Positions 9,880 to 12,857 of a stretch of 51,202 nt of DNA are shown here, piece after piece. This DNA is from Candidatus Altimarinota bacterium (GTDB taxonomy: Bacteria > Patescibacteriota > Gracilibacteria > BD1-5 > UBA6164): the NCBI GenBank assembly GCA_010119095.1, contig SAAG01000003.1:1-51202 (forward strand), given 5' to 3'. The notes under the pieces were generated by a model. It had not been told where the DNA came from, made no database searches, and worked only from the letters and a program-made list of their open reading frames with translations. Within the stretch, counting starts at the first letter, position 1. The number at the start of each line of letters is the position of its first letter. The translations under genes and the position numbers were made by a program.

Positions 9880-10911
9880 ATGATTGATTTTTTTAACAAT
9901 ATAATAAATTTTATATCAACTTATCCATTTGTAGTTTTTGTTATACTAGTTGCATTAGTATTTGATTTTACAAATTGAATGCACGATAGTGCTAATTCAA
10001 TTGCAACAGTTGTATCAACTCGTGTATTAACACCAAAACTAGCTGTTATGTGGGCTGCATTTTTTAATTTTTCAGCCTTTTTTATTGTCTGAACAGAAGT
10101 AGCAAAAACTATTTGAAAATGAATGATAGATATAAGTATAGTTACACCAACTGTTATATTATGTGCACTTTTATGAGCTATCTGATGGAATATATTGACT
10201 TGGTACTTATGATTACCAACTAGTTCATCTCATGCACTTTTATGAGGTTATTTATGAAGTGCAGTTGCAAAATGATGAACTTGAGTAGTTATTGCTTCTT
10301 GATGGACTAAAACTATCATATTTATATTTTTAGCTCCACTTATCTGAATGATTCTATGATTTATATTAATTATTGTTTCTACATGGTTACTTAAAAGTGT
10401 TAGATTAAAAATAGTAAATAAGATATCCTATTTTCTGCAATTGTTATCATCGGCACTTTATTCACTATGACATTGAGCTAATGATGCACAAAAAACGATG
10501 TGAATAATTGTAAGTTTACTATTATCTGTAAATCTTGTTACATCTGCTAAACCACCTCTATGGGTAATGTTATCAGCATATTTTGCTATAGCACTGTGAA
10601 CTATAACTTGAGGATGGAGAATAGTAAAAACAATGTGAAGCAAGATTATACCACTTAGACCTATTGACTGATTTAGTGCAGAAACTGCAAGTGCAGTGAG
10701 TTTATTTACTGCTTCAAGTTTTTGAGTACCAATAAGTACTACACATGCTATAACATGAGCAATTTCTTGAGTTTGAATCGCTAAGAATGCAAAAGCAATC
10801 AGATGGAGTGTAGCTTCAAATATTGTAGTTGCCTGGATTTTTACAATTCCATGATCATGTCTAGTAGCATTTACTCTTTATCATGTAATAAGTCTTTTCT
10901 TAGGGGCATAA
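9880..10911 (+). CDS. PiT-family inorganic phosphate transporter
   Basis: A 343-residue integral membrane protein of the inorganic phosphate transporter (PiT) family, which imports metal-phosphate by proton or sodium symport. Both inverted signature repeats are visible: FDFTNGMHDSANSIATVVST near residue 30 and LGHGANDAQKTMGIIV near residue 200. The PTSSSHALLGGYLGSAVAKG segment and its later copy PISTTHAITGAISGVGIA are the paired motifs of the two halves. About ten TM segments are expected. It follows the DUF47 gene by 25 bp, so the two form a phosphate uptake operon. Confidence 0.94.
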
Positions 10912-10923
10912 TTTTAATAAAAT

Positions 10924-10951
10924 TTGCAAACTAAAAAAAATTATATATTAT
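10924..10951 (+). promoter_or_regulatory. Possible promoter of the T-box leader
   Basis: TTGCAA at 10924-10929 and TATTAT at 10946-10951 with a 16-bp spacer, after the PiT stop. Transcription would begin near 10958, just before Stem I. Weak matches in AT-rich DNA, so only a candidate. Confidence 0.3.
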
Positions 10952-10965
10952 ATTTTTAAGTTAAT

Positions 10966-11100
10966 TACTTTTAGAAAAAACATGGGTTGGAATCCAGTGT
11001 TAAAAGTAAAACACTAAAGTTAAACATTTGGGTGGAACCGTCTATTACAAATTTAGTAGACCCCAAGGCTTATTACACATAAGCTTTAGGGGTCTTTTTT
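10966..11100 (+). promoter_or_regulatory. T-box riboswitch with very small Stem I, upstream of glycyl-tRNA synthetase
   Basis: The T-box core is clear: GGGTGGAACCG at 11030-11040. It forms a canonical antiterminator. Helix A1 is TTGGG (11028-11032) with CCCAA (11062-11066). The 7-base bulge is TGGAACC (11033-11039). Helix A2 is GTCTA (11040-11044) with TAGAC (11057-11061). The bulge UGGA would pair with a tRNA ending in UCCA, and bacterial tRNA-Gly has U73. The competing terminator uses GACCCC (11059-11064) with GGGGTC (11089-11094), then six T. Upstream, TACTTTTA (10966-10973) pairs with TAAAAGTA (11001-11008) as a 43-base Stem I. Its apical loop UUGGAA contains GGA, a glycine codon followed by A. 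The next genes include glyS. Antiterminator and terminator are well supported; Stem I and the specifier are inferred. Confidence 0.85.
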
Positions 11101-11112
11101 AATCTAAAAATT

Positions 11113-11394
11113 ATGGAAAATATAACTCTAGATTCATTAAGTGAAGAGATAAATAAAATAAAAGATAGAAATGCTAAAGTTGAGGCTGAAAAAGCTTGGG
11201 AAACTTCAATGCATAGAAAGATATCAATACTGATTTTAACTTATATGATAATCAGTCTCGTTATGTATTTTCTTGACTTTGATAAACCATTTCTTAATGC
11301 AATTATTCCAACTTCTTGATATTTACTATCAACACTATCTATTTCTTTTTTAAAGAAAAGATATATAAATAAATATACAAGTAAACGAGGCTAA
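11113..11394 (+). CDS. Small two-TM membrane protein, first gene after the T-box
   Basis: A 93-residue protein I do not recognise. The first 37 residues are charged and probably helical (SLSEEINKIKDRNAKVEAEKA). Then come two hydrophobic segments, SILILTYMIISLVMYFL and NAIIPTSGYLLSTLSISFL, and a basic tail (KKRYINKYTSKRG). The layout predicts a small inner-membrane hairpin with a coiled-coil-like N-terminus. It begins 12 bp after the T-box terminator and lies 41 bp before glyS, so it would share the control by uncharged tRNA-Gly. Why a membrane protein is controlled with GlyRS is unclear. Confidence 0.75.
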
Positions 11395-11435: not shown

Positions 11436-12857
11436 ATGGAAAAAATAACAATGAACGATATAGTTAATCTAGCTAAAAATAGATGATTTGTATATGCTTG
11501 AAGTGAAATTTACTGATGACTTGCAAATTCTTGGGATTACGGTCCTTATTGAAGTCTTATGAAAGAAAATATTAAAAATCTTTGGATAAAAGAGTTTGTG
11601 CAAAAAAGAGATGATATGATGCTTTTAGATGCTGCTATACTTATGAATCCACAAGTTTGGGTTGCAAGCTGACATGTATGAGGTTTTAGTGACCCACTTA
11701 TTGATGATAAAAATACAAATGAGAGATTTAGAGCTGATAAATTACTTGAATGATTAATTTCTGATTTATGAGAAAAAGCTGATACACTTCTAAGTAAATA
11801 TTGATTAAATAATTTAATCCCTGAATCATGGTCAATTGAAAAACAAGCTGAAGTTATGAGATGAGAATGAGTTAAAAACCCAAATAATTGAAAAACAGGT
11901 AATTGGACTGATATCAAGAAATTTAACCTGATGTTTAAAACATTTCAATGAGTTACTGATGACTCTAGTGCAACTATTTATATGAGACCTGAAACTGCTC
12001 AAGGGATATTTGTAAATTTTCCAAATATTGTAAGAACAAGTAGGAGAAAAATTCCTTTCTGAGTTGCTCAAGTTTGAAAAGCATTTAGAAATGAGATAAC
12101 TCCAGGTAACTTTATATTTAGAACAAGAGAGTTTGAACAAATGGAAATAGAATACTTTTGTGAACCATGAACAGATTTAGAAGTACATAAAGAATGGAAA
12201 GAAGCTTGTAGAAAATTTTTACTTAATACTATGTGAATAAAAGAAGATTCTCTTAGATTTAGAGATCATGACAAAGAAGAACTAAGTCATTATAGTAATG
12301 CAACAACAGATGTAGAATTTAAGTTTCCTTTTGGTTGGTGAGAACTTCGGGGTATAGCTGATAGAACTGATTTTGATATAAAAGCTCATATGAAAGAATC
12401 TAAAAATGATTTATCATACTTTGATCCAGTAAACAATAGAAAATTTATTCCATATGTTATAGAGCCATCAGTATGATTAACTAGACTTTTCTTAGCAACT
12501 TTGATTGATGCTTATACTGTAGAGTGAGAATGAGAGGAACAAAGAACTTACTTAAAATTAAAACCAAGCATTTCACCAATTACTGTATGAGTATTACCAG
12601 TTGTAAAAAAGATAAGTGATATAGCTAAACCAATTTACGAACAATTAAGTGATGATTTTGTATGTGAATATGATGATGTATGAAGTGTAGGGAAGAGATA
12701 TGCTAGATTTGATGAGATTGGTACACCATTTTGTGTAACTATTGATAGTGAGAACTATGATGCATGAAAAGTAACAATCAGATACAGAGACTCTATGGAA
12801 CAAGAATTAGTAGAGATTAGTAAATTAAACGAGTTTATTAGAGCAAAACTTAAATAA
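11436..12857 (+). CDS. glyS: Glycyl-tRNA synthetase, alpha2 type
   Basis: GlyRS charges tRNA-Gly, here presumably including the UCA-anticodon tRNA that reads UGA. The 473-residue protein is the dimeric class II form. Visible are [20 protein letters not shown] near residues 22-40, [24 protein letters not shown], motif 2 around [15 protein letters not shown] then [14 protein letters not shown], and motif 3 VIEPSVGLTRLFLA. The C-terminal anticodon-binding domain begins near PITVGVLPVVKK. A second in-frame ATG is five codons in. It is downstream of a T-box and 41 bp after a small membrane protein gene; yigZ follows after 4 bp. Confidence 0.96.

Follow-up and report, generated by a model that had tools for sequence, protein, structure and literature searches.

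A putative transcriptional T-box riboswitch with a minimal Stem I ahead of glyS in a lineage that reads UGA as glycine

The leader at positions 10965–11100 of the window (the whole 51,202-nucleotide stretch analysed here; all features described lie on its + strand) is predicted, with a probability of roughly 0.92, to be a T-box riboswitch that acts on transcription through a minimal sensor, located ahead of the glycyl-tRNA synthetase gene glyS. This reading is drawn from features displayed by the sequence itself, namely the architecture of the leader, its conservation and covariation, its terminator, and the match between its codon and a tRNA. The window, contig 136, belongs to a genome of 1.53 Mb in 220 contigs in which UGA encodes glycine, as its reading frames close up under genetic code 25. 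The glyS gene (11436–12857, code 25) carries 25 in-frame UGA codons and encodes a dimeric-type glycyl-tRNA synthetase (GlyRS), which matches the NCBIfam glycine--tRNA ligase model NF003211 with 631.6 bits (cut-off 312). Besides UGA, its glycine codons comprise seven GGU and two GGG, with no GGA. The original prediction had placed a T-box in front of glycyl-tRNA synthetase, and glyS is indeed found downstream; a 93-aa ORF between the two (11113–11394, code 25) is an addition to that description. This ORF encodes a putative small membrane protein, occurs as one copy in the genome, returned no match in Pfam and NCBIfam searches, and opens the regulated unit in some species. Several relatives (L035, L062, L066, L074, L080, and L081) have a homologue at the corresponding position, between the T-box and glyS.

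A putative sigma-70 promoter (10924–10951) precedes the leader, with TTGCAA at 10924–10929, a 16-bp spacer and TATTAT at 10946–10951, and the transcript is predicted to start at about position 10958. Downstream, per-sequence folding yields an ultrashort Stem I (10965–11009), a 45-nt hairpin made up of a lower helix of 8–9 bp (10965–10973/11001–11009), a 5′-side internal loop of six unpaired bases (10974–10979), and an upper helix of 6–8 bp (10980–10986/10993–11000) in which G10997 is bulged. The short hairpin, its six-base 5′ bulge and its bulged G had all been foreseen, with a length of 43 nt rather than 45. The apical hexaloop UUGGAA (10987–10992) holds the specifier GGA at 10989–10991, followed by A10992, in keeping with the proposal that a glycine codon is presented by the terminal loop.

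The same element was found in 32 distinct glyS leaders, obtained from the family genomes that have GlyRS (43 of 48). The named relatives that carry this leader are Candidatus Gracilibacteria and Candidatus Altimarinus genomes, and include a complete chromosome (CP042461.1). The specifier encodes glycine in every leader, with GGA in 28 of them, GGU in three and GGG in one. All 32 leaders have a U-GG(A/U/G)-A loop, a form that the loop search itself partly required. The 5′ flank of Stem I pairs with its own 3′ flank at a mean of −10.2 kcal/mol, compared with −4.1 kcal/mol for the flanks of relatives, and none of 20,000 permutations in this flank-swap (chimera) test was as low; the pairing check suggested for Stem I thus favours the hairpin. 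RNAalifold, applied to ten aligned leaders, favoured a local UUUAC/GUAAA hairpin at the expense of Stem I, which is too variable for MAFFT to align. That result was set aside, and per-sequence folding together with the flank-swap test was used in its place. An alternative pairing, AGTGTT/AACACT, which had been suggested as a possible switch, exists in the window; no sign of it was noticed in the leaders of relatives, and a role as a switch is unsupported.

A hairpin this short could potentially be explained by a canonical long T-box whose Stem I has been misread, with the true Stem I far upstream and the specifier elsewhere, and long forms do exist nearby: same-class thrS leaders have a long, Rfam-like Stem I. 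In the glyS leaders of the family, however, a promoter-like TTGACA/TATAAT pair precedes the short hairpin at a near-constant distance. The −10 box lies a median of 46 nt (IQR 40.5–48) from the specifier in the 27 of 32 leaders with a good −10 box, and 43 nt from it in the window. With the promoter so close, there is no space for a Stem I of greater length, and a predicted transcript start at or near the first base of the hairpin makes a hidden long Stem I unlikely. The upstream gene, moreover, ends at 10911, the Rfam T-box model RF00230 has no match in the window at any threshold used, down to E 5 (its curated score of 93 bits is not reached), and the apical codon tracks both the downstream gene and the tRNA set. 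A misread long Stem I is consequently very improbable.

About 17 nt separate Stem I from the antiterminator in the window. Within them, the linker AAAGUUAAAC (11016–11025) lies where other leaders have Stem III (AAAGUG-hairpin-AAC), and the Stem III hairpin appears to be lost or vestigial. It is kept, with its AAAGUG...AAC flanks, in 13 of the 32 leaders; in the other 19, the window included, the hairpin is absent or vestigial while the purine flanks stay. Assignment of the AAAGUG-hairpin-AAC segment to a Stem II with an S-turn was considered and dropped, as the RF00230 alignment of the L188 leader has the same flanks around Stem III. Neither a Stem II with an S-turn nor a Stem IIA/B pseudoknot was found in the 32 leaders.

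The antiterminator (11027–11067) consists of helices A1 (11027–11032/11062–11067) and A2 (11040–11047/11054–11061), between which lies the seven-base T-box bulge UGGAACC (11033–11039), invariant among the 32 family leaders. Across these leaders, 90.9% of antiterminator cells are paired and 45 cells are changed on both sides, values reached in none of 500 shuffles. An intrinsic terminator (11059–11100), comprising a hairpin at 11059–11094 and a U-run at 11095–11100, overlaps the 3′ arm of the antiterminator with its own 5′ arm, and a terminator with a U-run is found in 32/32 family leaders. The canonical antiterminator, its UGGAACC bulge and the strong competing terminator are all located where the original prediction had put them, and the T-box in related glyS leaders and the covariation of the antiterminator, both left to be looked for, are present. 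In the folding model, the terminator state (−38.2 kcal/mol) is approximately 10 kcal/mol better than the antiterminator state (−27.9 kcal/mol), so termination would be the default. A weaker antiterminator state is what would be expected of any T-box when its tRNA is absent.

A covariance model that excludes the window's genus recovers the antiterminator as the single match in 51 kb (46.5 bits, E 1.4e-13). The covariance search that had been proposed therefore had a divided outcome, in that RF00230 misses the leader and the leave-genus-out model finds it. The sequence GGTGGNACCG occurs once in the 1.53-Mb genome and not at all in the backward control, the leader fold lies 4 s.d. below shuffles, and the antiterminator is present in 37 of the 38 family genomes listed in the class-wide model search. 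Within the leader, the top match from Rfam is to a PyrR site (E 5), which could hint at a constitutive terminator leader, or one regulated otherwise (e.g., a protein-dependent, PyrR-like leader), with a T-box resemblance only. That match is at chance level and was rejected, and such a leader would leave unexplained the bulge, the covarying antiterminator, and the agreement of the specifier with both gene and tRNA; this explanation is likewise very improbable.

The T-box reading is further supported by the tRNA complement. A tRNA-Gly(UCC)-like gene is found in every family genome, and the 30 loci scanned are all annotated Gly(UCC). This tRNA has the anticodon loop CUUCCAA and the discriminator U73, and its CCA end is encoded in most cases. 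The UGGA of the bulge is complementary to U73-C74-C75-A76 (UCCA) of tRNA-Gly, and the tRNA-Gly genes end in TCCA, as had been anticipated from the fit to a U73 end. The hexaloop UUGGAA is complementary to all six bases 33–38 of the tRNA-Gly(UCC) anticodon loop; as a guess, the conserved U and A on either side of the codon could contribute two pairs beyond the three codon–anticodon pairs. Within the order, a GGC specifier occurs only where tRNA-Gly(GCC) was found, that is, in five genomes (G119, G137, G177, G197, and G295), each with this tRNA. A pattern search, which could miss variant tRNAs, found no tRNA-Gly(GCC) in four GGA-type genomes of the order or in the family genomes tested. In a 94%-complete relative with a GGU specifier (G037), the glycine tRNAs found were UCC and UCA only. 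The rule is looser outside the order, where two genomes (G404 and G390) combine a GGA specifier with tRNA-Gly(GCC).

A tRNA-Gly(UCA) is also present. UGA accounts for 766 of 906 glycine codons (84.5%; 35 ORFs, window 1–51202), and GGA for just 5.6% in the same ORFs, yet GGA is the specifier of the T-box. The preponderance of UGA, and a U73-CCA end common to both tRNAs, would favour a leader that senses mainly the UGA-decoding tRNA-Gly(UCA), which serves most glycine codons. The loop codon, however, is GGN in 32/32 family leaders and UGA in none, and the anticodon UCA would mismatch one base of GGA, with which it cannot fully pair. Sensing of tRNA-Gly(UCA) is about as improbable as a misread Stem I. 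With tRNA-Gly(UCC) as the predicted ligand, the codon usage of the window means that the switch would monitor a tRNA serving approximately 15% of the glycine codons. The absence of UGA among the specifiers of the family may date from before the code change, or may bring some advantage through monitoring of the minor tRNA.

By analogy with established T-box biology, from which tRNA binding, sensitivity to charging and readthrough are inferred, RNA polymerase would start just 5′ of Stem I, and the apical loop of the short hairpin would offer GGA to the anticodon of tRNA-Gly(UCC). If this tRNA is uncharged, its UCCA end would pair with the UGGA of the bulge and hold the antiterminator, allowing the polymerase to continue into the 93-aa ORF and glyS. 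When it is charged, the antiterminator would not be held, and the stronger terminator would form. Points against this reading are that RF00230 misses the leader, that the leader lacks the elbow-binding module and the Stem II by which known T-boxes hold tRNA, and that its Stem III is vestigial.

Four classes of T-boxes have been described (PMC10482949). In classes I and II, Stem I is long and transcription is the controlled step; classes III and IV have a shorter Stem I and act mostly on translation, and class III needs Stem II (PMC10482949). Like class III (the Nocardia farcinica ileS type; PMC10482949), the window leader has a short Stem I without the double T-loop module, and its specifier, with a purine next to it on the 3′ side, sits in an apical loop of six nucleotides. 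Class III differs in being mostly translational, in coming from Actinobacteria ileS, and in needing a Stem II with an S-turn and a pseudoknot, whereas the window leader is specific for glycine, ends in a transcription terminator and lacks Stem II. The latter three features are those of class II (Bacillus subtilis glyQS; PMC10482949). Classes I and II, in contrast, have a long Stem I with a distal double T-loop (IDTM) and an internal-loop specifier, compared with the 45-nt Stem I and apical specifier of the window, and class IV has an intermediate Stem I with the specifier in a side bulge between two helices. The leader shares its apical specifier with class III, and its glycine specificity, terminator and absence of Stem II with class II, and therefore belongs to neither. 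The combination of a short Stem I, an apical specifier, no Stem II and a terminator fits none of the four published classes.

Four sequence features of the T-box superfamily are recognisable: a 7-nt UGGN-ACC bulge between A1 and A2, a competing terminator that overlaps the antiterminator, a gene-matched specifier in Stem I, and a bulge base complementary to the tRNA discriminator. Of a fifth, the RRRNG–Stem III–AA motif, the window keeps the flanks, with its hairpin absent or vestigial. The T-box bulge, the antiterminator and the Stem III flanks AGuG...AA (L188 alignment) are also those of RF00230, whose consensus has a long Stem I and leaves the window undetected. The long T-boxes ahead of thrS in the same class (L267, L268, L275, L277, and L279) share the antiterminator core and belong to the same phylum; they differ in their long Stem I and reach 36–48 bits with Rfam, still below the gathering score of 93.

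Similar leaders are found across Patescibacteria, and many of them have a short Stem I with a loop codon that fits the gene. The antiterminator model matched 76 of 288 class genomes and 38 of 380 phylum genomes, all drawn evenly and searched with strict filters that lose weak matches. Outside the family, 63 of 67 canonical-bulge matches lie upstream of glyS (21), thrS (36), ileS (5), or valS (1), genes that were labelled by tblastn against four references, with eight representatives checked by NCBIfam; the remaining four, with none of the four synthetases downstream, were left out as support. When loop codons were called across the phylum by a mechanical loop rule, the glyS leaders had glycine codons in 12 of 21 cases and the thrS leaders in 2 of 36 (Fisher 2.5e-5); threonine codons were present in 11 of 36 thrS and 1 of 21 glyS leaders (p 0.04), and isoleucine codons in four of the five ileS leaders and nowhere else. 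In the window's class, a long, Rfam-like Stem I is present in many thrS leaders, and this accounts for some of the loop codons not found. An exact-pattern scan of the genome collection, with matches sorted by the author's reading of the sequences, gave 45 matches, of which 30 are Patescibacteria-like leaders with terminators, one is from an Erysipelotrichaceae bin, and 14 were rejected as chance, mostly in G+C-rich coding DNA.

Patescibacteria quite probably hold a separate architectural class of T-boxes, which are transcriptional, have a short Stem I with an apical specifier, lack Stem II and in some cases also Stem III, and serve several amino acids; in the lineage with UGA as glycine, this class would control GlyRS via the minor GGN-reading tRNA and would not sense the tRNA by which most glycine codons are decoded. 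According to reviews, transcriptional T-boxes generally need a long Stem I with a tRNA-elbow module, the reason given being that the tRNA must bind before the polymerase reaches the terminator (PMC7583486). If the present reading is true, tRNA can be sensed co-transcriptionally without the elbow-binding module, which appears to be absent from an entire bacterial family and from many further members of the Candidate Phyla Radiation. Since the family appears to manage without this module, the minimal requirement for co-transcriptional tRNA sensing is directly testable on RNAs of approximately 140 nt. A 2008 survey listed T-boxes in Firmicutes, Actinobacteria, Chloroflexi, Deinococcus-Thermus, and two Proteobacteria (PMC2494555). 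No report of one in Gracilibacteria, Patescibacteria or the Candidate Phyla Radiation was found in the open-access papers searched, in agreement with the original prediction, which knew of no description for this lineage. The taxonomic range of T-boxes would thereby be extended, and a regulatory mechanism for aminoacyl-tRNA synthetases predicted for a phylum known almost only from genomes. It would also be linked to a recoded genetic code, through a sensor that reads the tRNA for a minority of the window's glycine codons.

The breadth of these short forms had been understated, as short-Stem-I T-boxes are also found ahead of thrS and ileS in many other Patescibacteria (L188–L216 and L262–L301), with the loops CUACCAA and CUAUCAA. 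The bulge is unusual in four leaders, with UGGGACC ahead of glyS in L276 and, ahead of ileS, UGGCACC in L289 and UGGAACC in L205 and L206. In the Erysipelotrichaceae bin (Firmicutes), the T-box (L259, 6380–6416, − strand) has a Stem I that also looks short, and precedes a 228-aa protein without an assigned function. The IleRS of two Patescibacteria (L288, 270–2036; L289, 265–2037) contains a phosphoglycerate-mutase/histidine-phosphatase-like stretch after approximately residue 500. Four thrS leaders (L194, L199, L200, and L294) have a second conserved segment pair, CCAGCCCAG ... AUGGUACCAC, in common.
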